DNA of 39,909 nt from the NCBI GenBank assembly GCA_021816885.1, contig JAKAWS010000009.1:1-39909 (forward strand). Direction: 5' to 3'. The notes beneath the pieces are model-generated. The model did not search any database and was not told the origin of the DNA. It saw only the letters and a program-made list of their open reading frames with translations. This document shows positions 5,468 to 29,300 of this stretch, one piece after another. Made by a program: the position numbers and the translations under genes. This stretch comes from Microcaldota archaeon. Its GTDB lineage: Archaea > Micrarchaeota > Micrarchaeia > Micrarchaeales > Micrarchaeaceae. Positions within the stretch are counted from its first letter, which is position 1; each line of letters starts with the position of its first letter.

Positions 5468-7327
5468 TTAGCTATTTGTTATCTTCTGGAAGTCCGGCAT
5501 TGGCTTGCCACCATTTACTGGAAGCGATAGATAATCTGTCATGTTCCTGTATGTCTTTATGTATTCAGGCTTCGCCTCCAGCTCCTTCACATTCCTTATG
5601 TATTTGTCTGAAGGATAACTCCAATCGTTGTGTGTGGACTGCCACTCCTTTGCTGGTATGCTGTACTGCCTCTGCACCTTGTCTCTGTACACCTCTGGGA
5701 ACACATTGAACGTACAGAAAGGCAGTACTTCTCCGTCCGGCATAGCGTAGTGTATGTCGCATTTCTCGACTCTGTGTATATCGTATATGTACTCATCCTG
5801 GAAGTGCATCATCCCCAAGAAGAGAGTCTTAAGCTGGAATGAGCCCATGGATGAAAAGTTGTGCTTTACTATGAGGCTTGTCAGCATCTTTGTGAAGTTC
5901 ACTGACTTTGGCTGGTTCTTCTTGTCGACATACCTCCTGAAGCCTAAGAGTGTCTTCAGCGCTATCGCCTTTCTTGCCAGCCTGTTCTTTCCCTCCATCT
6001 CATATATAGCTGTCTGAAGATGCTCTATCAGACCTTCGGCATCTACGAACCTTGTTATAGGGACAATCTTCTTGTCGCTATCCACAAATAGGTATGTGCC
6101 TGCGCCGCATGCGAAGTGTATGGACATGTCGTACTTGTATTCTCCTGTAAGCGCCTCTATGAACCGGTTTATTCCGCCTATATAAGGAACGGAGAACCAA
6201 TCGTCCTTTGATATTACGCTGTTTGTCTGCTCCTCTATGAGCTTAATCGCTCCGGGAATAGTTATTCTCTGTTTCTCCCTAAGCCTTGAGGGCATTCTGC
6301 CTACAAGCGAGACCGGCTGGAAATTGATAGCTCTTACAACATCCGTGTTGTTAAGCGCAAGGTTGATGAGTGCTCCCATTTCGTGTTCATTCACTCCCCT
6401 TATTACTGTAGGTACAAGCACTATCCCAAGGTTTGCCTTTCTGGAGGCCTCGAAAGCGAGAGGCACTTCCCAGTGGTTCTTTGGATTTGCGCGCTTGCTT
6501 ACCCCATCACAGCTCATGTATAAGACTCCTGCCCCTGCATACTTGACTTGCATGGCGAGTTCTGGGTTATTACCTATTATTATGCCGGTCGTGTTCAATT
6601 GTATCTGGTCAAAGCCTGCTTTCTTGGCATGTTCTATTATCTCGATTATGCGCGGATGCATCATCGGCTCTCCGCCAGTTATCTGTAGCGCATTTGCAGG
6701 GATCGGCTTCTGACTTCTTAGATTGTAGAATATCTTGTCAAGCTCAGCCAGGCTAGGCTCATATATCGATTCGCCTTCCTTCGCATAGAAGAAACAGTAC
6801 CAACAGCTCAGATGGCACCTGTTTGTGACGACTACATTAGCAAGCCCCGTGTGCGATTTGTGGCGCTCGCACATTCCGCAGTCGAACGGGCAGTTGGCTC
6901 CCTTTGTCTCTGTTATATAGTTTGGGTTGTCGAATCCTCTCCCAAAATAATTGTACCTCCTCATCTTCATGTACATGTCGTAATCTTCCCAGTACTTTTC
7001 AATCGTCCAGCCGTGCTCCGGGCAGTACTTCCGTATCATCACGTTGTCTGCGTCCTTGTATATAGATCCGTCAACTATGAGCTTGCATTCCGGGCATACG
7101 GTCTTCGTCTTCTCGATGACCGGCATCGCCTCTATCTCCTCCACTGTTCGGTGATACGGAGCAATGACAGGATCTATTGTCAGAGACTCTGTGTCGGCTT
7201 GTGTGGGCATGATGTTATTGAGCGCCTTTCTGGTGCCCTCGCTGTGTATGTCAAGTTCCTCAGCTTCAAGGTTCTTCTCCAGCTGTATACCTATGCTGGC
7301 TGCAGATATCTTCTCGTTATCGCTCAT
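5468..7327 (-). CDS. tes: Radical SAM enzyme of the tetraether synthase (Tes/MJ0619-like, COG1964) type
   Basis: Visible metal sites, in order: a rubredoxin-like set (C78-x2-C81, then C102 with PEHG); an auxiliary cluster motif C146-x3-C150-x2-C153 (NCPFDCGMCERHKSHT); and the radical SAM motif C171-x3-C175-x2-C178 (NRCHLSCWYC), with the SAM-binding GGEP at 218-221. Late Cys residues lie at 407, 523 and 538 (CDIHYAMPDGEVLPFCTFN). This layout matches COG1964 proteins such as MJ0619/Tes, which join two archaeol chains into membrane-spanning tetraether lipids. The 619-aa length is in the range I would expect for that family, with an extra ~75-residue N-terminus. A minus-strand TATA box (7362-7369) and AGGTG before ATG 7327 support the start. 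It could be another COG1964 enzyme with a different lipid substrate; the symbol is tentative. Confidence 0.82.
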   Translation of the reverse strand: MSDNEKISAASIGIQLEKNLEAEELDIHSEGTRKALNNIMPTQADTESLTIDPVIAPYHRTVEEIEAMPVIEKTKTVCPECKLIVDGSIYKDADNVMIRKYCPEHGWTIEKYWEDYDMYMKMRRYNYFGRGFDNPNYITETKGANCPFDCGMCERHKSHTGLANVVVTNRCHLSCWYCFFYAKEGESIYEPSLAELDKIFYNLRSQKPIPANALQITGGEPMMHPRIIEIIEHAKKAGFDQIQLNTTGIIIGNNPELAMQVKYAGAGVLYMSCDGVSKRANPKNHWEVPLAFEASRKANLGIVLVPTVIRGVNEHEMGALINLALNNTDVVRAINFQPVSLVGRMPSRLREKQRITIPGAIKLIEEQTNSVISKDDWFSVPYIGGINRFIEALTGEYKYDMSIHFACGAGTYLFVDSDKKIVPITRFVDAEGLIEHLQTAIYEMEGKNRLARKAIALKTLLGFRRYVDKKNQPKSVNFTKMLTSLIVKHNFSSMGSFQLKTLFLGMMHFQDEYIYDIHRVEKCDIHYAMPDGEVLPFCTFNVFPEVYRDKVQRQYSIPAKEWQSTHNDWSYPSDKYIRNVKELEAKPEYIKTYRNMTDYLSLPVNGGKPMPDFQKITNS

Positions 7328-7465
7328 CAGTACACCTAATAATCGAATACCGATTGTAAGGTATTTAAAGGATTATGGCGCAGAATTTTACACAGTTTCA
7401 TAAATTGCAGGGCAATAAATTTGTTTACAAACTTTTGCAAACCCCGCAACTCTGGAATGTTAGAG

Positions 7466-8458
7466 CTAAGCCGCACCTATGCTTCCGAACAGGCCTGCCA
7501 CTACGGCTCCGACAACAAGGAATACCCCAATCCCTATGAGTATGAATACCGGTATGAGCCTTATCCCACGCACCGGCTTGCCCGAGTTTATCGCTGCCAT
7601 GATGAGCGCTGCGAACCCTGTTATTATGATTATCGCGAGATATGAGAAGAGATGGTACTGTGCTATGGTTATAACAGGCGGCTGCGGCTTTAGGAATGAT
7701 GAACCGGTAGATGGGAGCCCTCCCGGATTGCTCGCAAGTATGCCTGACCACACAGTATCTGTTATCTTTATCATCTCACCCGTCAGCCCATATAGCACCG
7801 GCGCTGCGACCAGCCCTGCGAAGGCGATAAATATGCTGTACATGAAAAGCTGGCCGGCTATCTCCTTCTGCACTATCTGCTGGCTTCTTATATCCTTTGA
7901 TATCTGCTCCATCAAGTCGGCCATCTTTCCCCCAAACCGGTACGCTTCTGAGATCAGTCGTACCGACCTTGTGAGTGTATTAGACCTGTAGCTCGCAGCA
8001 AGTTTGTGTAGTGTCACATCGAAGCTCTCTCCGCTGAACAGCCTGTTGTTCATCCTTTGCACGTCTTCTGCGAATGGTGTGAATTCAGGTCTGGCCGCTA
8101 TCAGCATCGATCTGTCTATTGACATCCCGCTTCTTAGGTTCGCAGCTACCAGCTGGAAATATTCCGGCAGGATGCTCTCCATTTTGTCAGCGCGCTTGTC
8201 CAACTTGTAGTTAAGCACTCCGTATAGGACCATTATGTATACCAGCCCTGACACTAAGCTCAATGGGAAAGATTCGAAAAGTGGCAATTTTAAGGCTAGG
8301 AACATGACTCCAAGCCCTGCTATCGCTATCACAAAGAACCCGATTATCATGTATGAAAGAAGAGTGTTCAGGCTCATCTGCGACCCCGAGAGGTCTAGAG
8401 TGTCCTGTAGCATCTTTCCGACCCTTCTTGATACAAGCCTTTCGAAATTTATTGCCAT
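7466..8458 (-). CDS. tadC: Tad/GspF-family pilus assembly platform protein (second copy)
   Basis: This is an inner-membrane platform protein of type IV pilus-like machines, which couples the secretion ATPase to pilin extraction. A T2SF domain lies around residues 90-200 (PEYFQLVAANLRSGMSIDRS, LFSGESFDVTLHKLA, ISEAYRFGGKMADLMEQIS). Two membrane helices precede it (about 35-55 and 65-85) and at least three follow (about 203-225, 270-290 and 302-325). The final helix is Gly/Val-rich. It starts 4 bp after the stop of the other platform gene, making it the last gene of the operon. The symbol follows the Tad nomenclature by analogy only. Having two diverged platform genes in tandem is typical of Tad-type loci. 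Confidence 0.88.
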   Translation of the reverse strand: MAINFERLVSRRVGKMLQDTLDLSGSQMSLNTLLSYMIIGFFVIAIAGLGVMFLALKLPLFESFPLSLVSGLVYIMVLYGVLNYKLDKRADKMESILPEYFQLVAANLRSGMSIDRSMLIAARPEFTPFAEDVQRMNNRLFSGESFDVTLHKLAASYRSNTLTRSVRLISEAYRFGGKMADLMEQISKDIRSQQIVQKEIAGQLFMYSIFIAFAGLVAAPVLYGLTGEMIKITDTVWSGILASNPGGLPSTGSSFLKPQPPVITIAQYHLFSYLAIIIITGFAALIMAAINSGKPVRGIRLIPVFILIGIGVFLVVGAVVAGLFGSIGAA

Positions 8459-8462
8459 AATA

Positions 8463-9626
8463 TCACATACTGAATACTGGTCTCGAGCTCGTTATGAGCT
8501 TGAGGAAGACAATCTGCAGGAACCCTATCCCTATGAGCGCACTGAACAGTATCTGGGGAGTTATCTGGAATAAAGATATGAAAGTGGTCAGAATTGTGCC
8601 TACGGCCAGACCCATACTGGGCAGTATGACCCCGAAAAGCATATAGAACATAGCTATCGCATTGAGCTTCTGTCCATATCTTCTAAGCTCTATCATCCTT
8701 TCCTGCTGTAGATCATCTAGCACTGTCTGCAAAGACGCTACCACGTCCGCTCCTGCCCTTACGCTGACAGATGCCTGTATCATCAATCTCCTGAACGATG
8801 GGCTCTTCGTATCGCTTATCTGCTTGTCTATCGCATCCTCTAGCGGTGCGCCGAGTTGCACCAGCTCTATTATTTTCCTAAACTGTATGCTTGCATCCCC
8901 ATATCCTGTGCTTACGGATGCCATGGCGTTGTATAATGGCATGCCAGACCTCAGCGATATGATAAGGTCCCGTGCAGCGAAGAGTATGTCCCTCTCTACC
9001 CCTTTCTCGCTCTTCTTCCTTTTGTTGCTGGGGTAGTTCAGGAATGTGCTGAATGCCATCCTGAAGAAGACGAAACCCAAGACGAGTCCGATCAGTGCCG
9101 AGATTATGGCCGGCTGTCCCAGCCTGATGAAAAGTATGATCGCGGCGGCCGCTATCATCAGTGCCACAACGGCTGCAGAGAAGAGCATCCGCTTTATGAA
9201 CGAAGCCGGAGTGCCCGGCACGTTCTGCGATGTCAATATCCCTGGAAGCTCCTTATGCTTGGAAAGCGTCTTAGCTACATACTTCGAGACGAATCCGCTT
9301 TTGTACGCCGGCCTGTTTATTGTTGTTGATAAAGTCTTAGGGTGCGGGGCAGCTGTCACGACAGGAGCCGAAGCTGCTTGAGGAACTTGCTGGGAAGGCT
9401 GTTGGACAGAAGGTGATTGCGGTTGAGCTTGCTGCGGCAGCTGCTTTGGCATTGAGATATTTGGCGTTGGAATAGTGCCTTCGGGCTGCCCTTTGGCAGA
9501 GAATGGGGAGAGAACTGCTGCAGGCGCCTTCTTCGGTCCTCTCTTGAACAGCGAGAACCCTGGCTTAGGCTGGAGCACTACGTCCTTTCCACCGACCTTG
9601 ATCACCTTTGGCTTCTTCTCAAACAT
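8463..9626 (-). CDS. tadB: Tad/GspF-family pilus assembly platform protein with Gln/Pro-rich N-terminal extension
   Basis: The C-terminal two thirds is a T2SF-type membrane protein. Helices lie at about 148-166 and 172-195, a cytoplasmic T2SF domain at about 215-320 (ARDLIISLRSGMPLYNAMAS, QLGAPLEDAIDKQI, SVSVRAGADVVASL), and helices near 335-383. The first ~145 residues are soluble: a short basic start (FEKKPKVIKVGGKDVVLQ), then a Pro/Gln/Ala-rich flexible linker at about 45-95. That extension is absent from ordinary TadB/TadC and could tether the ATPase or another cytoplasmic partner. The start overlaps the end of the 176-aa gene by 8 bp, implying translational coupling. The gene symbol is by analogy. 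Confidence 0.87.
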   Translation of the reverse strand: MFEKKPKVIKVGGKDVVLQPKPGFSLFKRGPKKAPAAVLSPFSAKGQPEGTIPTPNISMPKQLPQQAQPQSPSVQQPSQQVPQAASAPVVTAAPHPKTLSTTINRPAYKSGFVSKYVAKTLSKHKELPGILTSQNVPGTPASFIKRMLFSAAVVALMIAAAAIILFIRLGQPAIISALIGLVLGFVFFRMAFSTFLNYPSNKRKKSEKGVERDILFAARDLIISLRSGMPLYNAMASVSTGYGDASIQFRKIIELVQLGAPLEDAIDKQISDTKSPSFRRLMIQASVSVRAGADVVASLQTVLDDLQQERMIELRRYGQKLNAIAMFYMLFGVILPSMGLAVGTILTTFISLFQITPQILFSALIGIGFLQIVFLKLITSSRPVFSM

Positions 9627-10149
9627 CCACCAAACCTATCGTCCTTATTATATCATCAAGCAGCTTGTCCCTGAAACTTATGAGCGCCTGGTCTGCAACA
9701 TCTTTTTCCTGAAGAGCTGCTACAGACTTCAATCCATAAGCCTCTTGCGCCACTATCGAAATGTGCCTTTGGTCCAGCACCTTCTGCGCTATTGCCGAGC
9801 TGATTCTCTCGAGTTCTGCTATCTGCTCTGTCAAAGATAAGCCCGGAAGTATTAGATTTTTTGTGTCTATCTCGCCCGGATTTATATGTATCTCACTCTG
9901 CTTGTTCCGATATTCTTGCCGTTTCGAGGATTGGGTAACTCCTTCCTTGGCAAGGAGACTAAGCACATCCTTGTAGCTCCTCTGTTCGGGCTTTTCTAGT
10001 TCCTTGTCTATCAACTGCGAGATGTCTATCTCTACCTCGTACTCGTTTTGAGGGATTTCTTTCTCTATCTCCAGTATCGACTTTGAGAGCTCTGCATAGC
10101 CATGAGCCTCCATGCCGACACCGTCGCCCTCGTTTTCCATATCTATCAT
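9619..10149 (-). CDS. Small acidic helical protein of the pilus operon, unknown function
   Basis: I do not recognise this 176-aa protein. It is acidic and predicted mostly helical, with no signal peptide or membrane segment. A segment EYEVEIDISQLIDKELE is followed by charged helices and a C-terminal helical region (SLTEQIAELERISSAIAQKV; then FRDKLLDDIIRTIGLVDV). The start codon shares a base with the stop of the ATPase gene (TGATG), and the 3' end overlaps the next platform gene, so all are tightly coupled. Its place between the ATPase and the platform proteins suggests a cytoplasmic connector or ATPase regulator, which is inference from position only. Confidence 0.8.
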   Translation of the reverse strand: MIDMENEGDGVGMEAHGYAELSKSILEIEKEIPQNEYEVEIDISQLIDKELEKPEQRSYKDVLSLLAKEGVTQSSKRQEYRNKQSEIHINPGEIDTKNLILPGLSLTEQIAELERISSAIAQKVLDQRHISIVAQEAYGLKSVAALQEKDVADQALISFRDKLLDDIIRTIGLVDV

Positions 10150-11648
10150 CAGAAGTTCTTGTAATCGAAATCAATATTGCTTTTCGCCATGCCGATGACC
10201 TTCTCTTTGTCCTTATAGTACTGCGACACTACGAAGCCCGCGTCGTTTACGTCTACTATGTTCTTGTTAACCATCCACTCCAGTATTATCTTGTGGTCCT
10301 CTATTATCTTGTTTATCTCTTCCTTAGTCGCGCCCGCGTACAGCATGAGCGTGTCGGAAAGCTTCGTCATCTCCTTGTTCTGGATGATAACATCGTGCAG
10401 GTAGTCCCATTTGTACAGTACGTTCGCGTCGCCCGAATCGAGAATCTCGCCAAATTCCAATACCCTTCGTATGTTCTTCGTCCTGTGCCGTATCAACGAG
10501 ACTATGCATCCCAATGCATTCATCATGACTTTCGGAGAGTTTATCGGCGGGTTTGTCATCCTGACTATAGTGTCGTTGACATTGTCGGCGTGGAGCGTTG
10601 CATACACGGAGTGGCCCGTATGTATGGCTTCGAAGAGCGTCTCTGCGTCTTCTTTGGTCCTTACCTCGCCAACTATCACTATGTCTGGCCTCTGCCTGAG
10701 GGCGTTTATCATGAGCTGGTACAAGTCTATCGCTCCCTTTCCCTCCGGGTTAGGCTGTCTGGTCAACATCGGCACCCACTGGTAGAACTTTGGCAGCGTG
10801 AGTTCCCGGGTCTCCTCTATAGATATTATCCTCCTGCTTGCAGGGAAGAATATGCTGATTGCGTTTAGGAAGCTCGTCTTTCCGCTGGCTGTTCCTCCAG
10901 AAATCAATAGGCTTATCTCGTTCTCTATGCACATCCATATCAGTGCCGCCACGTCGGTGGTAAGCGATTTTGCTTTTATGAGCGCAGGCATAGTCCATGG
11001 ATTCTTCTCGAATTTTCTTATTGTTATGGTGTTGCCCACCTGTGATATCGGAAACAGAGTTGCGTTAACCCGTGAGCCGTCTGTCAGCTCGGCATCCATA
11101 AGAGGAGAAAGGTTGTTCAGTTCTCTTCCGACCTTCCTGCCTATCTGCTGAGCTTGATCGTATATCATGTTTTCGCTGAGGGGTCGGATATTGGTCTTCG
11201 CCCAGCCGACCTTTTTGTGGAATACCCATATCTCCGACTTGGAGCCGTTTACCGCAATCTCTTCAAGGTCGCTATCGGCTATGGGAACTTCGAGTTCCCC
11301 GAGCCCGAGCATCATGTTGATTATGTAAGATATCAGAAACCTCTTCAGCTCAGGATCTGTGCCGGGAAGATTTTTGTCTATCAGCAGCTCACTGGCCTGC
11401 ACGTACCGGATGTTCAGCTCCTTGAGATATTCGCGGTCGTCAATCCTTGATGGGTCGATGGGGACTATGGAGACAAGATTTACCCTGAATGACATGAGAA
11501 GGAGTCTTGTGGCGTTTGGCACTCCTTCAAAGTCAATCTCATACACAGGCACGAATTCGTCCTTCTTGAAATAGATCTTTATCTGTGCGGCCATTCCATT
11601 AACGTCTAACGAATATTCCTTGAAAACTTTGCCGATATCTGCTGCCAT
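10149..11648 (-). CDS. tadA: Type II/IV secretion system ATPase (TadA/VirB11/ArlI family)
   Basis: This hexameric ATPase powers assembly of type IV pilus-like filaments at the inner face of the membrane. The N-terminal ~220 residues are the N-domain, with a typical LEEIAVNGSKSEIWVFHKK segment and ADGSRVNATLFP-like variant DAELTDGSRVNATLFP. The C-terminal motor has Walker A GGTASGKT (251-258), the Asp-box-type acidic run SIEETRELTLP (277-286), Walker B with the catalytic Glu in PDIVIVGEVR (321-330), and the His box HTGHSVYATLHAD (343-355). The 499-aa length and domain order are typical. The gene starts 1 bp after the upstream stop, with a GAGGG Shine-Dalgarno inside that gene's end. Confidence 0.95.
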   Translation of the reverse strand: MAADIGKVFKEYSLDVNGMAAQIKIYFKKDEFVPVYEIDFEGVPNATRLLLMSFRVNLVSIVPIDPSRIDDREYLKELNIRYVQASELLIDKNLPGTDPELKRFLISYIINMMLGLGELEVPIADSDLEEIAVNGSKSEIWVFHKKVGWAKTNIRPLSENMIYDQAQQIGRKVGRELNNLSPLMDAELTDGSRVNATLFPISQVGNTITIRKFEKNPWTMPALIKAKSLTTDVAALIWMCIENEISLLISGGTASGKTSFLNAISIFFPASRRIISIEETRELTLPKFYQWVPMLTRQPNPEGKGAIDLYQLMINALRQRPDIVIVGEVRTKEDAETLFEAIHTGHSVYATLHADNVNDTIVRMTNPPINSPKVMMNALGCIVSLIRHRTKNIRRVLEFGEILDSGDANVLYKWDYLHDVIIQNKEMTKLSDTLMLYAGATKEEINKIIEDHKIILEWMVNKNIVDVNDAGFVVSQYYKDKEKVIGMAKSNIDFDYKNF

Positions 11649-11649
11649 C

Positions 11650-12936
11650 TTATCCCTCTTTTTTGACCTCGTCTCTCAGCTTTGCTGATGAAAGTATGCT
11701 TGATGCATTATCTACGATGCCGTTTATCTTGTCCAGTCTGCTTTTTAGTTCGTTGCTTTTTATCTCTAGCTTTCCCAATAGGGTCATCCCGTTCTGCTTT
11801 CCGATGCTCGTTGACGGAGAGGCGTTTACGTTCTTTATGCCGCGCTCAAGGGAGCTGATATCTTTCTGGACCGCGCTTAGCTCTTTCTTTGCTTCTGCGA
11901 TAGACTGGTTTGCAGCTATAATCGCGCGGCCTGCGCCGCCGCTAACTGAGAGTTTTTGGCTCATCTGCTCTATTGAATCAAAAAGGGGTTGGGCTTTGTG
12001 CACGTAGTCGCTGGCTAGTTGGTTCAACGACTTTTCTATAGAATTGTAGTCTGATTCCACTCTGACCTTTAACTCATCCATCCTCTTCAGTGCCGCTTTC
12101 TCTTCGCTTATCGTCTTGGGGAGATTCTGGCTTGCGCTTTTGGCTATCGTATTCCACTCGTTCAGGTTCTGCAGCTCTATCTTTACGCTGTCGGATGCCC
12201 TCTTTATCTCTGCGTCTATCTCCCGCTCCGCCTCGTCCAGCGTTTTTTTAAGTAATCTGACCTGGTCATCTATGTCTTTCCTTATCGCCTCCAGCTCCTT
12301 CCTCTTGTTTGTCTTAAGATCTTCTATGACATTCCCGAACCTTTTAGCGTCTTCCGCCAATTCAGTTATCTTCTGTATGTCAACTGACTTAGCGGAGATG
12401 TCCCCTAGCCTCTTATATTCGTAGTCGAACTTGGTTATTACGCTTTTCTTCTCTGATTCGGCCTTCTTTTGTATCTCGTTTATTCTTTTTTCCATCCGGG
12501 TCGCTTTTCCAAACATGCGGTCTAAGTCGGCCAGTGATTTGTGAAGTGCAGGAAACTTGCGCATGAACTCCTTGTCGAGCACCTGTACCTCCTTGTAGAG
12601 CTCTTCTAACTTCGTTTTTAGCTGCTCCTCTCTGAGGCGCTGGTACTCTGAGCTCTGAGATATCTTCGCCTTTTGTATACTTATGAGCTCTGTAGCTGCA
12701 ACGTGCTGGGCAGGAGATGCGCTGACGGGCGCCACGAACATTTGTCCAAGCTCATTTGTTATCTTTACCAGGCCGCCAGATTCAAGTATCTTAGCCCAAT
12801 CCTCTATTATTCCAGAATATGTGCCGAGGACTGTGGCAATCGTATTTACATTGCTCTTGCCGTTGGCGTTTATGTACTCCAGCATAGAGTCGATGGTTGT
12901 CTTACCCAATACAACATTCTCAGCCAACAGCACCAC
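11650..12936 (-). CDS. Winged-helix plus long coiled-coil protein, first gene of the pilus operon
   Basis: The N-terminal ~70 residues look like a winged helix (TIDSMLEYINANGKSNVNTI, IIEDWAKILESGGLVKITN). About residues 90-345 are almost continuous coiled coil rich in Lys/Glu heptads (RLREEQLKTKLEELYKEVQV and onward), with a final helical stretch to residue 428. There is no membrane segment. An in-frame TAA just upstream restricts the start to a GTG at 12936 (or the next GTG at 12933). It leads the ATPase/platform operon with a 1-bp gap to the ATPase. The family is not recognised. A cytoplasmic scaffold or regulator of the pilus machine is a reasonable inference; the wHTH may serve protein contacts rather than DNA binding. 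Confidence 0.85.
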   Translation of the reverse strand: MVLLAENVVLGKTTIDSMLEYINANGKSNVNTIATVLGTYSGIIEDWAKILESGGLVKITNELGQMFVAPVSASPAQHVAATELISIQKAKISQSSEYQRLREEQLKTKLEELYKEVQVLDKEFMRKFPALHKSLADLDRMFGKATRMEKRINEIQKKAESEKKSVITKFDYEYKRLGDISAKSVDIQKITELAEDAKRFGNVIEDLKTNKRKELEAIRKDIDDQVRLLKKTLDEAEREIDAEIKRASDSVKIELQNLNEWNTIAKSASQNLPKTISEEKAALKRMDELKVRVESDYNSIEKSLNQLASDYVHKAQPLFDSIEQMSQKLSVSGGAGRAIIAANQSIAEAKKELSAVQKDISSLERGIKNVNASPSTSIGKQNGMTLLGKLEIKSNELKSRLDKINGIVDNASSILSSAKLRDEVKKEG

Positions 12937-16832: not shown

Positions 16833-18377
16833 TTACTTAGCGTTGATTTTGACTCCCCTCTTTAGGGCGATGTTCTTGGCTGCGAGCCTGGCAATTGGAT
16901 GCTTTATCTGGTTTATATTCCCGAGCATGTGCCGCTTTAGGTCAAGTGTGTCGGCTTTATCTAGTATCTTCAAATTTAAACCAATTTCGGAAACCTTGTC
17001 TATACTGTTTGATATTTCAGTGGCAGCTTTGACTGCGTCCGAATGCTTCGAAGCACGGGTGGATTCGGAGAGTTTCCTGTATCCGGCTGATAGCTGCTTA
17101 GAACTTCGGCTGAAGCGCTCTAACTGTTCATGAACGCCATTAAGAGTTTTTGGCACGTTTGAGTTCGATTTTCCCTTTGCGCCTTGGAGTATCGCTATAT
17201 CTGTTTCATGTTGCTCATCTATCTGTTTCGCCCGGTCTGTCAGCCCTTTTGCCAGTGCATCTCTTTTTGCGTTGGCTGCCGTTACGGAAAGGGCACTTAT
17301 TGCATTGTCTATTGTTATGTTTCCGGCTTTTTGCGCCCGGGCCCTTTCTATGACGTCCGTGACTCTTTTTATCTGGTTGTGCCTTGCAAATAATGGGCTC
17401 TGGAACTTTATTTTTGGCGGCGCAGTCTGGGTCTGACTCTCTTGATTATTACGCAGTTCTGCCAGCGTCTTAGCTGCTGCCCCTGCAATTATTAAATTTG
17501 TATCATTTCTCATTGCCCCCAGCGTCCATACATCCGTGTGCGGGTTTCTAGCGACATTCTCTCTGACCAAATCATCTTTATCCCTACTCAGTGCCACAAG
17601 CGTCCTAAAGTGAGTGTTTGGATTACGAGCGAGCCCACGCTTGACAGGATTATGGATGTCATTTCTCATTGCTTCCAGTGTCCATACATCTGTGTGCGGG
17701 TTTTCAGCGACTATCGCTCTGACCCGATTATCTTTATCCTTACTCAGCGCCGCCAGCATCGTTGGGGTTGTGAATGGACTTGCAGCGACTGTCACTTTAC
17801 GTTCCGAACTCCAGCCTGCGATTTTTAAAGCTGTTTTAGCTGCCTTCCTTCCGGCCGGACTCGCCTGGCTTATGGGTGCCGGCGGAAACAGAGGCTGACG
17901 GGCGCCTTTGTTTTTCTTTGCTTTAGATGCTACAGCGTACCCTGCGCCAATCGTCGCTGCCGTGCCTGCAGTTTTGGCTGCAGTGCCAATGAATAATGGA
18001 CTTCTTTGACCTAGTTTTATTGGCTCTTTTAACTGATTGGAATTGCGTATTTCTTGTTTTAACGTGAGTGCTGCGCCGACTACTCCGCCGTACTTCCGTT
18101 TGCCGTCCGGTCCTTTCTTAGGAAACCCCCCCAAGATTCCCAACGTCTCTCGACCTCTTCGTGGTTTTATTTCGCTTGGCTTGCGCTTTTTTAATCCTTT
18201 GCCTACGCTTCCCCCGCCAATCCCCTTGGTGGCGCCGAAAATCACTCCGAGCGAAAATATTGTGAATAGATTTTTGCCCCTACTCAGGCCGGCCGCCGCA
18301 AGTATCAATGCGCCTATCAACATTACCGGTATGAGCGCAGAAACAGCGTTGAAGCTCAGTAATATGGTCTGCAGCAT
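16833..18377 (-). CDS. Membrane protein with four LRV (leucine-rich variant) repeats and helical C-terminus
   Basis: Two hydrophobic helices (about 5-30 and 36-55) are followed by a basic Gly/Lys-rich stretch (about 55-100) and a weak third helix (about 128-150). Residues 193-296 hold four units of exactly 26 residues with the pattern V-R-x-x-V-A-x-N-P-x-T...L..L..D (VRAIVAENPHTDVWTLEAMR at 219; VKRGLARNPNTHF at 245; VRENVARNPHTDVWTLGAMR at 271). This matches LRV/HEAT-like solenoids, usually protein-binding. The remaining 200 residues are helical and probably coiled coil. It starts 1 bp after the stop of the 1559-aa surface protein, so it may be the membrane or cytoplasmic partner of that protein. 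Function unknown. Confidence 0.8.
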   Translation of the reverse strand: MLQTILLSFNAVSALIPVMLIGALILAAAGLSRGKNLFTIFSLGVIFGATKGIGGGSVGKGLKKRKPSEIKPRRGRETLGILGGFPKKGPDGKRKYGGVVGAALTLKQEIRNSNQLKEPIKLGQRSPLFIGTAAKTAGTAATIGAGYAVASKAKKNKGARQPLFPPAPISQASPAGRKAAKTALKIAGWSSERKVTVAASPFTTPTMLAALSKDKDNRVRAIVAENPHTDVWTLEAMRNDIHNPVKRGLARNPNTHFRTLVALSRDKDDLVRENVARNPHTDVWTLGAMRNDTNLIIAGAAAKTLAELRNNQESQTQTAPPKIKFQSPLFARHNQIKRVTDVIERARAQKAGNITIDNAISALSVTAANAKRDALAKGLTDRAKQIDEQHETDIAILQGAKGKSNSNVPKTLNGVHEQLERFSRSSKQLSAGYRKLSESTRASKHSDAVKAATEISNSIDKVSEIGLNLKILDKADTLDLKRHMLGNINQIKHPIARLAAKNIALKRGVKINAK

Positions 18378-18378
18378 A

Positions 18379-21300
18379 TTATCCCGGTTTTCTCAGATAA
18401 GCTTTATTTCCCAGGATAAATAATACCGCTATGATGGCACCAATCGCACCGATTAGGATTATGCTTATGTTCCCGTAGCTAAGCAGGTAGCTACCTATGT
18501 ATACTGATGAAACTGTCGAATTCGGCGCATAGTAATAGTTGTATTGATTGGTTGTCACACTGTTCTGCGTTGTTCCTGCAAAGTTTACAGAACTTGACAA
18601 TGGCGGTTCGGTCACCCTTATCGGCTCTGGCGGAGGATAACCATACCATACAGCCATGATCTTCTGCGGGCCTACTCCGCATGCTTGGAAACTGTAGCTG
18701 AATTGACCTTGCGCGTTTGCCTTAGCTATGCCTATGAGACCTATCTGCGATGTGAGTAGACCGTTCCCGGATGATGATGTTGCTTCGCATATTTGAGGCT
18801 TCCCGTTCAGCGAGTAGCCAGTAGCGGGAAGGCCGAAATTGCCGTATATGTTGCAGTTCGGGGTTGGGGGCATCGTAAGCAGCGAGGTAGAAAGTTTACG
18901 GCAGTTGCCTGTCGAGTCGAAGCTTGGGCTATACTCTTGATAAGCGGCCTCTTCCAGGTATGCGGTGGAACCCCCAGCACCTTGGGTCGCACTGGCTAAC
19001 GGATTGGCATACTGGCATACGGAGGACGATTGGGACGCAGAGAATGTGCATTGTTCTGCATGCTTGAAATAGCCCGCTGGATTGGATGTCGGAGTGTTCG
19101 ATGTATTGAAGTAATTGATATTTTCTCCGTAATACAGGTATATCTGACTGGAAGCAGGGACGGGATAATAGCTATTAAGAAGGCCGGAGTGATAGCCTGC
19201 TGAACCTGATATCTGTACTGTAGTTTCATTGGGATTGGCTGCACTGACCACTGGAGTCACATTCATTGCTATCGTGGTTATATTTGCTAGGTCCGCATCC
19301 ATCGGGACTGCAACGATATTGTTGAACGCGTCGGCGTATGTGAACACCAATCGATCATAGCCTAAGATATGGCTATTGTTCAGAAGGTTAAGGTCCTCGC
19401 TATTGAAATATGAAAGCTTCTTGAAGAGCTGGAATACAGTCATGTTCTGCGTGTTCAGCCCGGAGGTGGATGTGAGTATCGCATTACCGGTAAAAAGTCC
19501 ACTTTTGGGGGCACTGTAATAGTAATTTGGAAGGAAGCAGAACGAACAGGCTACACCTAACGTATTCGAGCCTGTGCTTGAGAGACTCTCTTCTACAAAT
19601 GCTGGCTGTATTCCGAATGTATCTATCTGGTCAAAGCCCTGTGTGTTGTACGAGTAGAAATGTATAGCGTTTACTGTGAGAGGGGCAGGAAGATTAAATG
19701 CCTTTTCGACGCTGATGTTCGCATAGAACTCGCCGATATGTCTGTTAGTGAGCAGTATCGTGGCGATGTTGGGGTTTATTATCAGCCCAGCATCAGACAT
19801 GTTCGCTTGGAACGTGTCCTTGGTAGTATTAAAGACTAGGTATGATTGACCGCCCTCTATCGGTATGTTTGAGGTTGAGCTTGAAGCATGCTGCTTTGAT
19901 ATGAGATAATAGTTCTGCTGGCCGTTGGAGTTCTGTGCCCATATCGGAACCAGTGGCAGGCAGATGCCAATTGAACCGTAGAATTGGGCGGACTTCTGCT
20001 GGAAAGTGGTCTTTTTCTGTATGTTTACCGTGTAAGGGAAATCGAAGACCCCGTTTATCTGGCTTCTTATATATGTCGTAATCGCGTTTGAGATGACTGG
20101 AACGGAACTCCCTTGGTTTTCTCCGTTGGTTATCGTATTATAATTAAAAGTCTGGCTTATCCCGTTATTCTTTATGGAATTTGCGGAATTTTGGAACGCG
20201 CCTGAGTTTATCCCGAATGGGAACGAGGCAGCGAACGAGTTCGGAATGCTCAGGAACCTTTGAGGGGAGCCTTGGTTCTCCGCGAAGTCAAATGCGCTTG
20301 GGACAAGAATCAGTGGCGGATGTAGGGCGGTTAGGGATTGTACATTCTGGAGGCATGTGCTTTGCGGCGCAGTAGTGTTTATCATGCAGATATATGACGC
20401 ATTTTGCGCGAAGGATACCCTTGTATAATTCTGTATGTTAGGCCTGAGCTCTACAAGCAACGTATACGCATTGCTGCCAGTATGCGCTATAAGATAGCTT
20501 GTATCGTTATAGTCGGTCGTGAATCCAAAGTTTTCTATGGCACTCGTGGGATTGGTGTTTCCGATGGCCTTTATAAATGGGCCAATTGGAAGATAGCCGA
20601 ATGTGTTAGAGGAGGTCATCTGGGATGGGCTGTAAGTGCATTCGTATGCACAGTATGATATACTGGAATAAAAGGAACCCTGGTATGTACTTGCATTGGA
20701 TCTTGGGATTTGGTAGATTATTGGAGTAATGGGAGGCGGAGGAGGTGCGGAATTTGGTTTTGCAAGGCTCACGTTCGCCGATAGAGGCCATCCGTACGGC
20801 GGATAATTATAAGAAACGGCTCCAGTCGTAAACTGATTTACTGTTAGAGTGTTTCCGTATATATCTGGAATGGTTCTTGAGTCTATCGGCACTTCTGCTC
20901 CGTTGTACGAAAACGCCCTCAGCATAAGTATGCTGGATTGGCCGCCATTGACCGAAAATGTCCAATTGTCAACAACATACAGAAGACCGTCGTATTCCGA
21001 TATGGCCATTGGATGATGATTGGCCGCAGTATCCAGTACAGATGAACTTCCTGCATAATAGCTCTTTATTCGGCTGCTATTGAACGGGCCACCGTCCTTC
21101 GCCAGGTATTGTGAAATGTCTAGGGATGGATAAGCTAGGTTTATGTTGCCAGCTGGTTGCAGGGTATTCCCATCGATGACCACTATGTTCCCGCTGTTTG
21201 GTGCAGAGATGTATATGTATTTTCCGTTTGGAGAGGCGGCGATGTCGCGCGGGTTTATTGGAATATTGATAGTCGCAAACTTTGATTGCTTGTTCGAATA

Positions 21301-23058
21301 CAAGGCTGCTATCTGGAATGTCTGCGGGCATCCGTTGCTGAATATGCTTCCGAACCAACAGCTTATATCAGTCCAACCGGAGGCCGAAACTGTCCCGGTA
21401 ATGAACACATCGCCCTGATAATCTGTTGCTATCCCTGTCGGATCTGTTCCTTGCATTATTTGAGCATTGCCGAGTACTGGTATGTGGCTGCCGTAGCATG
21501 GAGATACAGCTGATGACAAGTCGCATATTCCGGTTATGTAGAAGTTCGCGGTAAATAATTGGAGATAGTTTGACCAATAGGCGTGCCAGTAATTGTCGAA
21601 GGCACTCTGACTATTGATGCCGATGGGATGGGCAGTGGCAGGGGAAAGATTATAGTCCCCGCTGGGTATCGCGCTGATGTTGAATAGGATGGTAGAGTAT
21701 TGACGATGCGAAAAGAAGCAGGCGTGCGCGAACCCGCAGTGGCTTGTGAAATTAAGCACGTAAATTTTGTTGTTGGGGCTTACTGATATGAATGATGGGT
21801 CGATTATCTGTATATTGTATCCCGGATTGGATGTATTGCTTTCAAACGAGGCAAGGAGGCCCATCTTGAAAGTTTTATTGTAGGTTACAGGCGTGTTCGG
21901 AGATATAAATGACAGGGTATTTGCGGACAGTCTTGCTAGGCTATAAGTTGTAGAGCTGCAGAAGCCCAAACAGAACCAAGAGCCGCTATGATATGTACTT
22001 ACGTTTGCGAGCAACGTGGTGCCTGTGCTGAGATTGAACGGCTCGAGCGTGTTCGGGGTCGCCCAGTTCGACGGATTGTATATGCTGTGGTTTAGGGTCA
22101 GATACTCGGAGCTTGAACTGAGGCTTGACGAGAGCACAGGTATGTTTGCATCATAGAATATTTGCGGCAATAGAGAGACATCCTGATATTGGCTCGGCGC
22201 ACCTGTAGATGTCAAGCTTACCGGAACAGGTATTGCAGCGTTCCTGAATGTGGCCGAGCTTGCAACCGTGTATGAATAGGAGTATATACAAAAGCCCAGT
22301 CCGGCAGCCGGCCTCAGCAGATTTGCTGTCCCGGTATACGAGAGAGAAACCGGACTCGATGAGGCTAGATTCGCATATTTGGCGTACCAGTCCCATACTG
22401 CGCTCTGGTTTGTTGCTGGCGGCTCCTGAAATGCATATGAATTGGTGTTCTGGTTGGCAGATATGAAGAGGTTGCCGGAGTTGTTCAGCTCGTTGGAGAA
22501 GCCTAAATTCCCTAGATAGGAGCTTACAGGGTTCTTGACTGACGGAGAGAAGGACGTGCTCACAACAGTCAGCATGGTCCATTTAGATATTGAACTATAC
22601 CCTATAATTGTTATAAGGGGCAGCAGATTGGCTATGCATCTGTTTCCGGCTATGTCGTTAGAGGAGGTCAGATATTCGTATGGGTCGCTTGGGTTTGGTG
22701 CATTTGGGCAGGTCAATAGGTATGGTGTGTTCACAAGATTGTATTGGCCTATATTGCTTGTGAGAGGCACCTCTGAGAAGGGTATAAAATTCATGTTTGG
22801 GAGCAGCGGTGCCGAGCTAATACCCTGCACCTTTCCGTTTCCAGCATCAGAAAATGTTGTCGTGACAATTTCAGTTACATAGCCAAAGCACCCACCGACA
22901 GCATAGAAGTTCAGACATTGACTAAGGGATGGCTGATAAACTGTTTGCGCAAGTGTATTTGATGATAGAGGAGAAGCCGACGTGACTAGAAGCATGGAGC
23001 CAAACCCTATCGCCATAACAAATGCAACAAGCGCAGCAATAAGAAATCTTTCAGCCAA
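18379..23058 (-). CDS. Giant cell-surface protein (1559 aa) anchored by a C-terminal helix
   Basis: A hydrophobic N-terminal segment (FLIAALVAFVMAIGFGSMLL) is a signal peptide or anchor. The ectodomain is rich in Ser, Asn, Tyr and N-x-S/T sites. A single C-terminal membrane helix (about 1533-1553) is followed by KAYLRKPG. Around residue 606 there is a YVTN/NHL-type propeller signature (SPNGKYIYISAPNSGNIVVI), and scattered Cys pairs suggest disulfides. The start is TTG: the minus-strand TATA element TATATAAC (about 23078-23085) lies 26-27 bp upstream, implying a leaderless TTG start, and no in-frame ATG is nearby. I infer an S-layer-like or adhesion protein. It is co-transcribed with the LRV-repeat protein (1-bp gap). 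Confidence 0.85.
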   Translation of the reverse strand: MAERFLIAALVAFVMAIGFGSMLLVTSASPLSSNTLAQTVYQPSLSQCLNFYAVGGCFGYVTEIVTTTFSDAGNGKVQGISSAPLLPNMNFIPFSEVPLTSNIGQYNLVNTPYLLTCPNAPNPSDPYEYLTSSNDIAGNRCIANLLPLITIIGYSSISKWTMLTVVSTSFSPSVKNPVSSYLGNLGFSNELNNSGNLFISANQNTNSYAFQEPPATNQSAVWDWYAKYANLASSSPVSLSYTGTANLLRPAAGLGFCIYSYSYTVASSATFRNAAIPVPVSLTSTGAPSQYQDVSLLPQIFYDANIPVLSSSLSSSSEYLTLNHSIYNPSNWATPNTLEPFNLSTGTTLLANVSTYHSGSWFCLGFCSSTTYSLARLSANTLSFISPNTPVTYNKTFKMGLLASFESNTSNPGYNIQIIDPSFISVSPNNKIYVLNFTSHCGFAHACFFSHRQYSTILFNISAIPSGDYNLSPATAHPIGINSQSAFDNYWHAYWSNYLQLFTANFYITGICDLSSAVSPCYGSHIPVLGNAQIMQGTDPTGIATDYQGDVFITGTVSASGWTDISCWFGSIFSNGCPQTFQIAALYSNKQSKFATINIPINPRDIAASPNGKYIYISAPNSGNIVVIDGNTLQPAGNINLAYPSLDISQYLAKDGGPFNSSRIKSYYAGSSSVLDTAANHHPMAISEYDGLLYVVDNWTFSVNGGQSSILMLRAFSYNGAEVPIDSRTIPDIYGNTLTVNQFTTGAVSYNYPPYGWPLSANVSLAKPNSAPPPPPITPIIYQIPRSNASTYQGSFYSSISYCAYECTYSPSQMTSSNTFGYLPIGPFIKAIGNTNPTSAIENFGFTTDYNDTSYLIAHTGSNAYTLLVELRPNIQNYTRVSFAQNASYICMINTTAPQSTCLQNVQSLTALHPPLILVPSAFDFAENQGSPQRFLSIPNSFAASFPFGINSGAFQNSANSIKNNGISQTFNYNTITNGENQGSSVPVISNAITTYIRSQINGVFDFPYTVNIQKKTTFQQKSAQFYGSIGICLPLVPIWAQNSNGQQNYYLISKQHASSSTSNIPIEGGQSYLVFNTTKDTFQANMSDAGLIINPNIATILLTNRHIGEFYANISVEKAFNLPAPLTVNAIHFYSYNTQGFDQIDTFGIQPAFVEESLSSTGSNTLGVACSFCFLPNYYYSAPKSGLFTGNAILTSTSGLNTQNMTVFQLFKKLSYFNSEDLNLLNNSHILGYDRLVFTYADAFNNIVAVPMDADLANITTIAMNVTPVVSAANPNETTVQISGSAGYHSGLLNSYYPVPASSQIYLYYGENINYFNTSNTPTSNPAGYFKHAEQCTFSASQSSSVCQYANPLASATQGAGGSTAYLEEAAYQEYSPSFDSTGNCRKLSTSLLTMPPTPNCNIYGNFGLPATGYSLNGKPQICEATSSSGNGLLTSQIGLIGIAKANAQGQFSYSFQACGVGPQKIMAVWYGYPPPEPIRVTEPPLSSSVNFAGTTQNSVTTNQYNYYYAPNSTVSSVYIGSYLLSYGNISIILIGAIGAIIAVLFILGNKAYLRKPG

Positions 23059-23901: not shown

Positions 23902-23946
23902 TCACCCACTCACTAACTTTTTATAGGTATGCAAAGAAAGCTAATT

Positions 23947-24447
23947 ATGTCTTTCATGGCGCAGAGTGCAGTCGAGTTTGTCTCGGTATACGGCTTTGTA
24001 CTGCTTATCATAGGGTCGGTGCTTGCAGTACTCTTAATCTTCTCGAATCTTCCTTTAACGATATACCCGCCAGGCTGCCATTCTTACGGAGGTTTCAAGT
24101 GCAGCGATATACTCTACGCGCCGAACAGCACCACATCCAACTCATCAGTTTTCATATTCCTCTCAAATGCCCAGCCAGGAATAGTGAATATAAGCAGCTT
24201 CGTGGCAACAATCGACAACAAGAGAAGCGTAAGTGGAAGCTGTGCCCCCAGCAGATCGACACAGGGCAATACAATCAGATGCATAGCAGATGTTCCGCTG
24301 AGCGCAAAGGTTGGAAGCATATATGCAGGTTATTATACGATATATGCGAACTACTGTGCACCCTTGCCTTACCTTCAGGATAGCACAGTATGCCAAAGCA
24401 ACAATAATGTTTCTTTTACGGGTCAGTTCATAGTGCAGGGAAGCTAA
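23947..24447 (+). CDS. Pilin-like protein with class III signal sequence
   Basis: The N-terminus MAQSAVEFVSVYGFVLLIIG carries the short QSAVEF motif followed by a long hydrophobic helix, typical of archaeal proteins cleaved by the prepilin peptidase and built into type IV pilus-like filaments. The remainder (about 130 residues) is extracellular, with several Cys residues in pairs and glycosylation sequons. I prefer ATG 23947 because a TATA element (about 23917-23926) lies 26 bp upstream, predicting a leaderless message. An ATG at 23929 adds six residues. Together with the gene at 3-839 it is a candidate substrate for the pilus operon in this window; the prepilin peptidase is not seen here. 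Confidence 0.78.
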   Translation: MSFMAQSAVEFVSVYGFVLLIIGSVLAVLLIFSNLPLTIYPPGCHSYGGFKCSDILYAPNSTTSNSSVFIFLSNAQPGIVNISSFVATIDNKRSVSGSCAPSRSTQGNTIRCIADVPLSAKVGSIYAGYYTIYANYCAPLPYLQDSTVCQSNNNVSFTGQFIVQGS

Positions 24448-26300: not shown

Positions 26301-29300
26301 ATGGCTGGTAAGTTGCACAATCAAACCAACGAATTCTCAGGTAAGAATATGGATCCAAAGCGTTTTGCGGCTGTAGCTGCGTTCGGCATAATATTTCTGT
26401 TTTTGGCAGGAGCAAACATCTCCTATTCCACGATAGTGTTGTCTGTAACCCCTTCTGCATCAAACATAACTGTGGATCAAGGGGCCATATCCAGCATACC
26501 ATTCAATGTCCTGGCAACAGGCGGCTCCGGGGACTACATATACTCATCTACGGTTATAGCTTCCGCAGGTGCTTCTAATACCAATTACTGTGATTTCAAT
26601 AGTATAACATCTGCATCCACATCCCCTATCAACTTATTCAGTCTGGGTTCTAGCGGCTTCTTACCTTGCGGTATAAACAACCTAGGAGGTCCCGGGCTTA
26701 CTTTCGATAATGCCAACACCCCTTATACTATAAGCATATCGGCGCAGAACACAAGCGGCGGCGGCACAGTAACAGTAGATAAGACATTTAATATATATCC
26801 TACACTTACATTCAACAGCCTTTCGGTGACTCCATCAGAGATATACACATCAAACACGCTCGTTTTTGCAGTTTCATGGTATAATTCCAGTAGTGTCCCG
26901 TCCGGCGTACCTCCATTTACAGTGTCAATCACGTATGGCACCTCAACATCCTGCGCGGCCGATACGATTCCCGCAACAGGATTATCTGGAATAACCAACT
27001 CTCACGTGACTTTTTCTGTAACAGCTCCTAATACTCCAGACAAATACTATTACTGTGCTTCGGTTCTTGACAGTTCTTACGATTCACCGCAAACGGTGTC
27101 AAGTTTACAACCTGTCGCGGTAACCGTGGTCGCTCCAGCTACGATATCGCAGAACTTCCCGGACGCTGTCGATGTAGGTCAACAGGTAAATGTCGGGTTT
27201 GTTGTTCACGACGGCATCGGTCCGTTTACAGTCGCCGCGTACTCGACATCAAACAACACACAAGTCAGCAATACCATTAACCTACCATCACCTGATAGCT
27301 CTAGCAGTCTATCGTTCAACGCACCGAAGGTTGCAGGTATATACACTTACAAACTAGAAGGAACCGACGAAAGGACAAACAGCGGAGGAACGGGGCCCAG
27401 TTTCAGTTTCAATTCAGTAAACCTAGCGCTGAGTGTAAGTAACACTCTCAAGTCACCAGTTATAACCTTAAGCTCCAACTCCATAGAGCAGGGCCAGCCG
27501 TTCAGCGCAAATGCACTCTGTGCAGGCGGTACCCCTACGGATATCTGCACAATCAACATATACAACGCATCCTCCCACACAAAACTTTCCGGATTTACAT
27601 ACACCCAAACGGGTTCCCCTTATGTTATTATAGCAGATTCGATAGCTAGCAACAAACTTGCGCCTGGTCAATACTACCTAAACGCAACAGACTCAGATTC
27701 CAGCGCTGCAGGACACGAGACAAATGCCTCTTCTGATTCAAACTTCATAATAACTCCGGGCCCGGATGCGATAGAGTCCCTGTCCTCAGCATCTGTGACA
27801 TATCCAAATGCGCCGATAATCACGGTAAGCGCAGTAAACGGGATCGCCCCATATTCATTCACTCTGGATGTATATTCAAGCAACGGCGTACTTGAGTTCA
27901 GCGCGTCAAACGATCTTGCCAATACGATAGAATCGCGTTCATACAGCCTTCCGACCCTTGCCTCTGGATTATACCAAGCCAATGTAGTGCTTACGGACAG
28001 CGCATCTCCTGCAGTGACTGTTGATTCCTCAAACTCTTTCAGCATAGGGAAGGGAGCACCGCCTATATACATATCGACGCAGCCATCCTCTTCATTCACA
28101 TACAACAACACAGGTATAGCATACTACTACGGATTTAACGGAATAAACACGCAACAAACCCTTTCGCTAATATTGCATTCCCGTTTAGGCTTTAATGTGC
28201 CTCCGACCGGCAACATAATAGCCAGAGCCCAGAATGAAGGCGCAAGCCTATCGCAGATTGCCATTTCGCCTAACGGCACACAGCTGTATATCCCAGATGG
28301 AAATACAAAGCTTTGGATATACAATATCTCAAATATATCATCTAGCGTAAGCTTTTTTGGGATATTCAATGGCATAGGGTTCTTCAATGGAATAGATGGC
28401 ATAGCGTTCAGTCCAAACGGGACGCTAGCCTACGCGCTTAACGGTCACAACAATACGATAAGCCAGTTCGCTGTGGCAAATGATACGAACAATTTCGACG
28501 ACGGGAGGCCGAATCTGAGAACCATAAAAGGCTTCAACGACCCGATTTCAATCGCCATAACGCCAAACGGCAAGTATGCCTTTGTAACTAATAGTAACAA
28601 CAACACAATATCAAAGGTCAACCTTTCTACCGGCAACATAATACTCACAATCACCCCATCTATGATCAGTACCAATCATTCAGCATCCCCACACGGTCTT
28701 GCAATATCGCCTAATGGCAACACTCTGTATGTGGCGAACGGCGCAGGCGGCTCCAATTCTATTGGATCAATAGACCTGCTTAACACTACGACTGGTCAAA
28801 ACTATGGCAGGATATCGGCTAGAGGTATGATTCAACCGCTCTACCTATCACTCGGACAAGGGGGAAGATTCCTATATGTTACTGATTTCGGTGGCGGGAG
28901 CGAAAACATTACAATAATAGATACAAGCACGATGAAAAGCATAGGTAACATAGCGTATTCTGGCGATCCTCAAGGCATAACGATGCAGCCCAATTCATAC
29001 TATGGGTTCATCACCTTTGCAAATGACAGTCTCGCGCAGGTATCAGCCGGGGAAGGCTCTGGGGTAACCGGCGCTTCCGCCGGAACATATAATTTCTCGC
29101 TTGCCGGCTTCCCAACCCAGAACTACACCGGTACCAGCGTGGCAGCAAACATTACCATATTCAAGGCAACACCAACAATAGACCTTACGAGCATACCGTC
29201 CTTCATTTACACAGGAAATGAGTTGACCGTTAACTACGGAATATTCAACACGCTGCAAAAACTTGCAGGATTACTCACCTTAAATGGAAACATAATAGCA

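Follow-up and report, generated by a model that had tools for sequence, protein, structure and literature searches.

A type IV pilus motor operon of Micrarchaeota with two cytoplasmic proteins, CC and P, as probable accessory subunits

The stretch of DNA analysed here, referred to as the window, comprises 39,909 nucleotides (nt) of contig JAKAWS010000009.1 from a Micrarchaeota metagenome-assembled genome (MAG) of 795 kb, belonging to the DPANN archaea; the source archaeon is tiny and probably host-dependent. Within the window, five closely packed minus-strand genes (12936-7466, from open reading frame analysis) encode, in order of transcription, a coiled-coil protein termed CC, a secretion ATPase, a small protein termed P, and two platform proteins, TadC1 and TadC2. 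It is likely that this operon specifies a motor ATPase and a membrane platform of two subunits, both belonging to a type IV pilus (T4P) that Micrarchaeota inherit vertically, with CC and P as cytoplasmic accessory subunits. T4P are leading candidates for the structures by which DPANN archaea hold their hosts, and the parts list of these pilus machines is incomplete. The motor, whose ATPase has an ortholog in 81 of the 83 sampled genera of the phylum, is now tied to a specific pilin family, with two uncharacterised cytoplasmic proteins travelling along. Structural and localisation studies thereby gain concrete targets, and the pilins to be sought on cells can be named. The genomes compared are incomplete MAGs, and the searches were made within the phylum.

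The five genes follow one another almost without spacing. CC, a protein of 428 amino acids (aa) with a GTG start (11650-12936), leads the operon and is separated by 1 nt from the ATPase gene (499 aa; 10149-11648; T2SSE, PF00437, 117 bits), which overlaps the gene for P (176 aa; 9619-10149) by 1 nt. P in turn overlaps TadC1 (387 aa; 8463-9626) by 8 nt, and a gap of 4 nt leads to TadC2 (330 aa; 7466-8458). Each platform protein carries one T2SSF domain (PF00482), at residues 218-340 in TadC1 (2.8e-16) and at residues 102-223 in TadC2 (1.8e-15). A first-pass annotation, made from the sequence alone, had described a five-gene Tad-like operon whose genes meet with overlaps or gaps of 1-4 bp; this spacing holds for three junctions, the overlap between P and TadC1 being larger. 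The operon and the core that it named, an ATPase with two platform proteins, are borne out.

The catalytic motifs of the ATPase are complete (Walker A GGTASGKT, Asp box EETREL, Walker B IVIVGEVR and His box GHSVYATLHA), and the Walker A motif is kept as GGTASGKT or GGTGSGKT in every ortholog listed for the phylogenetic tree. The closest solved relative is the Archaeoglobus protein 2oap (217 bits), with CpaF at 161 bits, and the enzyme is of the VirB11/FlaI type found in archaeal T4P systems. In a small tree of 33 ATPases, which included one CpaF sequence, the operon ATPase fell within a Micrarchaeota clade with full support, apart from CpaF, FlaI and the ATPases of Archaeoglobus and haloarchaea. 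Scores against the NCBIfam models remained below the cut-offs for both TadA (170 versus 373 bits) and FlaI (246 versus 550 bits). An archaellum (FlaI/ArlI clade) was rejected on the tree position and this score; no ArlH neighbour was seen, and no archaellum genes were seen at the loci examined. The bacterial Tad pilus (CpaF/TadA, TadB, TadC) shares with the operon a VirB11-like ATPase and two single-domain platform proteins, but it was likewise rejected as an identity by the tree and the TadA score, and CC and P are not Tad parts. No TadZ/CpaE, TadD, RcpC or Flp pilin appeared among the Pfam matches obtained for the operon and adjacent genes, a genome-wide search not having been made. The earlier Tad-like label is therefore apt at the superfamily level but not below it, since the ATPase falls outside CpaF in the small tree and archaeal T4P commonly combine an ATPase with a pair of tadC genes (Makarova et al., 2016; PMC4858521).

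Exactly two T2SSF proteins exceeded the cut-off in each of 18 genomes out of 18, the listed pairs lying at the operon; in the window genome TadC1 and TadC2 are the sole such proteins. The platform is of the T2SSF (TadC) type found in archaeal T4P systems. TadC1 also bears an N-terminal cytoplasmic extension (residues 1-145; 9192-9626, minus strand; from alignment and membrane-segment prediction), with membrane segments beginning at residue 149. The extension consists of 24% Gln and Pro, has a net charge of +16, and comprises a conserved basic tip, KKxxxVIxVGGKxVxLQPKP, followed by a variable Q/P-rich linker. Across the order, 51-421 residues precede the first membrane helix, and elsewhere mostly 46-94. 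Because it is long only in the order (and at locus L100), the extension is best regarded as an elaboration and not as a core part. The first-pass annotation had listed this 145-aa Gln/Pro-rich extension and the acidic P among the non-standard parts; the extension exists in the window, but as a variable-length linker with a short conserved basic tip and not as a domain, and the acidity of P, a net charge of -15, applies to the window species within a family range of -15 to +11. Neither feature was retained as conserved, and no weight is placed on the contrast between the acidic P and the basic extension. As a separate observation, two family-specific basic tips occur in the order, KKKRxIxVGGKxIELQPKP versus GFTKPKKFLFFKIKSKPIY, each followed by a Q/P-rich linker.

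Pilins identify the machine to which the motor belongs. Outside the window's order, 20 stretches containing 21 loci were sampled from other families of the class. At 11 of these 21 loci, a pilin with the signature K-G|Q(A/S)AMEYLMTYGWA(L/I)LVI or a close variant was found 10-79 nt 3' of TadC2 on the same strand. The signature was defined by a regular expression combined with hydrophobicity; 0.018 occurrences are expected per 500-nt window, and none was found in shuffled sequence. Pilins with class III signals are thus linked to the motor, outside the window operon, at these 11 loci, and also in genus g37, described below. Within the window itself, a predicted stand-alone type IV pilin of 172 aa (23929-24447, plus strand), recognised by its signature and by paralog search, starts MA|QSAVEFVSVYGFVLLIIG and is a candidate substrate of the motor. 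Used as a query, it recovered six more dispersed matches in its own genome, each bearing the signature, and stand-alone matches were dispersed in 20 of 20 genomes searched, many of them lying in open frames of 400-1900 aa. Searches with the Pfam families Pilin_N and Class_IIIsignal missed most of the relevant pilins, which were found by the window protein.

Furthermore, 13 of 18 genomes, picked since an earlier search had suggested the loss, were found to be without a second, pilin-rich pilus ATPase, and the prepilin peptidase is retained in 11 of those 13. Overall, the peptidase is present in 16 of the 18 genomes, in the window genome on contig C13 (PF01478, over cut-off), and in three genomes a pilin match lies within a few kb of it. 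The seven of these 13 genomes that were searched contain 4-13 matches each to the stand-alone pilin, the signature being confirmed for most of those read. Taken together, the linked pilins, the stand-alone pilins in genomes without a second ATPase and the presence of only two T2SSF proteins per genome indicate that the operon is the motor/platform module of a T4P. The service of trans-encoded pilins by one motor is established for haloarchaea (PMC4858521), and the loci compared here indicate that most pilin genes of the window's order have left the operon.

The association of CC and P with this module is conserved. An ATPase query was run against 59 genomes from the window's order, and the surroundings of 40 loci were read; the arrangement CC-ATPase-P-TadC1-TadC2, which is thus not fortuitous, was found in identical order and orientation at all 37 loci that were long enough and readable, the remaining three being ended by a contig edge (L050), unscored by the script (L060) or without confirmed TadC1/TadC2 (L073). 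Absence of the extra genes from homologous loci, which the first pass had given as a refuting observation, was therefore not seen. In the phylum sample, a profile of P (A1) matched 72 genomes, all within the order and none outside it, and the ATPase query found the same 72 of 76 order genomes. Since the two genes co-occur in 72 of 72 genomes and the same four incomplete MAGs lack both, P and the ATPase are inherited together.

At the 21 class loci outside the order, CC was recognised 5' of the ATPase in most cases, either by profile or by its N-terminal domain, and TadC1-TadC2 lie downstream at nearly all. The slot between the ATPase and TadC1 is occupied variously by a P-like protein or by an unrelated or undetected gene, or has no occupant. 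Where a protein is present it measures 174 to 1138 aa; elsewhere the stretch is unresolved, or the slot is empty, with TadC1 directly following the ATPase at L108, L109, L111 and both L112 loci. Two genomes of genus g37, which belongs to the window's own order, have a split operon, with CC-ATPase at one place and pilin (QAAMEYL)-P-TadC1-TadC2 at another. This split associates CC with the ATPase, P with the platform and the pilin with the machine, and suggests that CC and P may pair with the ATPase and the platform, respectively. Their retention beside the motor through much of the class makes both proteins probable working parts of it.

The predicted properties of CC favour a cytoplasmic role in protein-protein contacts. 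The first-pass description of a winged helix-turn-helix (wHTH) domain followed by a long coiled coil agrees with the AlphaFold2 model, in which three helices (residues 14-25, 30-37 and 41-53) and two strands (57-62 and 65-70) precede long helices. The wHTH domain (residues ~12-72; 12721-12903, minus strand; from alignment and model) is the best conserved part of CC, with invariant T, D and L residues in the alignment, and a structural search returned wHTH matches with probability 1.00, none reaching E <= 0.001. The position-3 helix, presumed to correspond to the recognition helix, bears an E-x-W-A-x-V-L-E pattern and has a net charge of -4 to 0 in 33 of 33 sequences, never being positive. In addition, no hydrophobic segment fit for a signal peptide or membrane helix was found in CC across 40 homologs. 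Because the recognition helix is acidic or neutral and membrane segments are absent, protein-protein roles in the cytoplasm are favoured for CC, as well as for P. A search for a named family for CC returned only coiled-coil noise (Baculo_PEP_C, SMC, PspB), and a few members matched helix-turn-helix families in Pfam.

P is composed of two short helical N-terminal motifs, a linker and a C-terminal three-helix bundle (residues ~91-174; 9628-9879, minus strand). The bundle is predicted with a predicted local distance difference test score (pLDDT) mostly >90 over residues 91-174, and includes the conserved motif LVLPxLSxxDQISELE. No membrane segment was predicted in P; the two extra cytoplasmic components noted in the first pass are indeed present. 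None of 37 members matched a Pfam family, no PDB match or solved relative of P was found, and the fold comparison returned weak BAG-like and other three-helix bundles only, with E >0.7. The N-termini of P and of the slot proteins of other families nonetheless match: profile comparison with hhalign gave 82% probability with a P-value of 1.1e-5, colinear over 58 columns, versus <0.5% in the N-versus-C and C-versus-C controls. The C-termini of the slot proteins vary by lineage while the N-terminal double motif is common with P; P can therefore be described as modular, with a fixed motif, a variable linker and an exchangeable tail. As a side observation, the slot proteins of L094, L097, L098, L104, L105, L106 and L110 end in a short conserved tail, YAKENLKWLYEIYKMGGMxxxDFxxKVRERM, which resembles a SHOCT-like domain; in the window's order a three-helix bundle stands in its place.

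On this basis a working model can be proposed. A hexamer of the ATPase beneath TadC1/TadC2 would spend ATP to pull membrane pilins into a filament, the pilins being supplied by genes dispersed over the chromosome and presumably processed by the single prepilin peptidase. CC would most likely dock on the ATPase through its wHTH domain, serving protein contacts and not DNA, with the coiled coil acting as a strut or regulatory arm. P would most likely act as an adaptor on the platform side, through its conserved N-terminal double motif, flexible linker and lineage-specific C-terminal helical domain. It is plausible that CC and P scaffold the motor, in line with the motor scaffold suggested in the first pass. 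A bolder version, which we put forward only tentatively, is that the two form a class-defining cytoplasmic module of the DPANN T4P motor: the CC wHTH, turned protein-binding, would anchor to the ATPase an arm formed by the coiled coil; P would combine a docking motif that stays fixed with C-terminal domains that can be exchanged, and from its place on the platform would couple a single motor to numerous trans-encoded pilins or to signals of host contact. The module would be an independent counterpart of ArlCDE/ArlH or PilM/GspL.

Several points weigh against the assignment of CC and P as accessory subunits of a pilus motor. The slot is empty at several class loci, and P is therefore not universally required. 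Since the pilin usually lies outside the operon in the window's own order, we infer which pilins the motor assembles. In addition, the net charge of a helix is by itself no proof against DNA binding by the wHTH domain, and an autoregulatory role for CC is possible. This last point leads to the alternative that CC is a DNA-binding transcription factor, autoregulatory or specific to the operon, with P as a minor regulator, and that the motor physically contains neither. The fold of the CC N-terminus, which is like that of the DNA-binding proteins ArsR, MarR and Sso10a, the few helix-turn-helix matches in Pfam, the leading position of CC in the operon and the frequency of transcription regulators near archaeal T4P loci (PMC4858521) all point in this direction. 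However, the uniformly acidic or neutral recognition helix, a coil of ~350 residues that is kept in the order and is unusual for a local regulator, and the company of CC with the ATPase gene, not the pilin/platform half, in the split operon make a purely regulatory role unlikely.

Another alternative is that the machine chiefly imports or exports DNA or proteins, as a competence or secretion pseudopilus, and is not an adhesive or attachment pilus. Pili have been proposed as a route of DNA import in Undinarchaeota (PMC7414124), and T4P as a route of exchange in Micrarchaeota (PMC5498576). However, neither the operon nor its syntenic neighbourhoods showed a gene for DNA uptake or secretion, and the numerous pilins, many in the long open frames noted above, are more adhesin-like, so that a transport machine seems rather improbable. 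Only a slim chance is given to CC being a surface-exposed host-attachment protein, as suggested for coiled-coil proteins in DPANN T4P loci that are similar to sigma-1, a viral attachment protein (Hamm et al., 2024): the gene company of CpaF, TadC and a coiled-coil protein is similar in cluster 2 DPANN (PMC11291902), but CC begins with a wHTH domain, lacks a segment suited for export, and coiled-coil similarity is weak evidence. Finally, that P and CC are unrelated hitch-hikers in a conserved housekeeping cluster, held by tight packing alone, is very improbable, for although few-base overlaps can passively preserve gene order, P moves with the platform genes in the split operon, co-occurs perfectly with the ATPase in the order and keeps its N-terminal motif across families though the rest is replaced.

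The accessory-subunit reading can be set beside systems already described. Golyshina et al. reported a 'euryarchaeal-type' T4P cluster, MIA14_0252-0260, in the ARMAN-2-related Mia14 (Golyshina et al., 2017; PMC5498576). Mia14 is reported to have two T4P systems, of methanogen/Thermococci type and euryarchaeal type, with one prepilin peptidase and no archaellum genes; the accessory genes of the cluster are not described in the text consulted. The window system is very probably the same as the Mia14 euryarchaeal-type cluster, and because such a cluster was already reported there for Micrarchaeota, the machine itself has a precedent. Loci of cluster 2 DPANN and of Undinarchaeota in which coiled-coil proteins accompany CpaF/TadC have also been described (Hamm et al., 2024; PMC11291902). 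As in those loci, where the secretion ATPase and TadC adjoin long coiled-coil proteins and pilins are not always in the locus, a coiled-coil gene stands beside the ATPase and TadC genes in the window lineage. In contrast, locus 2 of Nha. antarcticus has two coiled-coil proteins, read as possible attachment proteins, and neither a wHTH nor P is described, the comparison with CC being made by description.

A cytoplasmic coiled-coil protein of T4P subclade 4F, arCOG07564, has been proposed as a regulatory subunit (Makarova et al., 2016; PMC4858521). That survey also describes clade 2 ATPases with two tadC genes and major pilins as stand-alone genes, as here, whereas the window ATPase forms its own clade in the small tree and arCOG07564 was compared with CC by description. 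The claim that CC is a non-standard component therefore holds with respect to Tad machines but not to archaea at large, where such proteins beside T4P ATPase/TadC genes have been reported (PMC11291902; PMC4858521). The haloarchaeal plasmid loci inspected contain one large T2SSF protein and no coiled-coil annotation, and are uninformative about CC. What appears to be new is the class-wide linkage of CC and P to the motor and the assignment of Q(A/S)AMEYL pilins to it; no account of P, the CC wHTH, the class-wide linkage or the Q(A/S)AMEYL-motor assignment was found in the accessible literature.

Other pilus genes occur in the genome. A second pilus locus on contig C6 (L075, C6:9000-28390, ~6600-12300, minus strand) encodes a 481-aa ATPase with its own class III signal proteins, two small membrane proteins resembling divergent TadC and five or more pilin-like proteins that bear class III signals, and is patchy among relatives. 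It is probably the methanogen/Thermococci-type system reported for Mia14. A third secretion ATPase of ~440 aa, encoded on contig C17 (L074:7169-8494, plus strand) and also in L083, L084 and L085, from several genera, adjoins ftsY; a small wHTH gene and one of PRC-barrel-like type lie close by, and no platform gene is present. The three ATPases of the genome fall into separate groups of the tree.

When named genomes were scanned with the ATPase, a single locus was recovered, in 'Candidatus Micrarchaeota archaeon isolate YP3.bin43', with 84% identity in the ATPase. Immediately 3' of the pilus operon lies a gene for the tetraether lipid synthase Tes (7327-5468, minus strand; NCBIfam NF045702, 635 bits), a neighbourhood found in the same genus only, among the loci read. 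An M50 (site-2 type) protease gene (13918-13229, minus strand) is located 292 nt 5' of CC; this position is kept in most same-family loci, and the gene was not recognised there in the sister family. Three further genes of the window (18379-23058, minus strand; 26301-30668, plus strand; 38360-39610, minus strand) encode large proteins predicted to lie at the surface, in which beta-propeller-like (YVTN-type) stretches recur; they are candidate surface-layer or host-contact proteins. A protein of 514 aa (16833-18377, minus strand) contains leucine-rich repeat variant (LRV) repeats flanked by an N-terminal membrane segment and a helical C-terminus.

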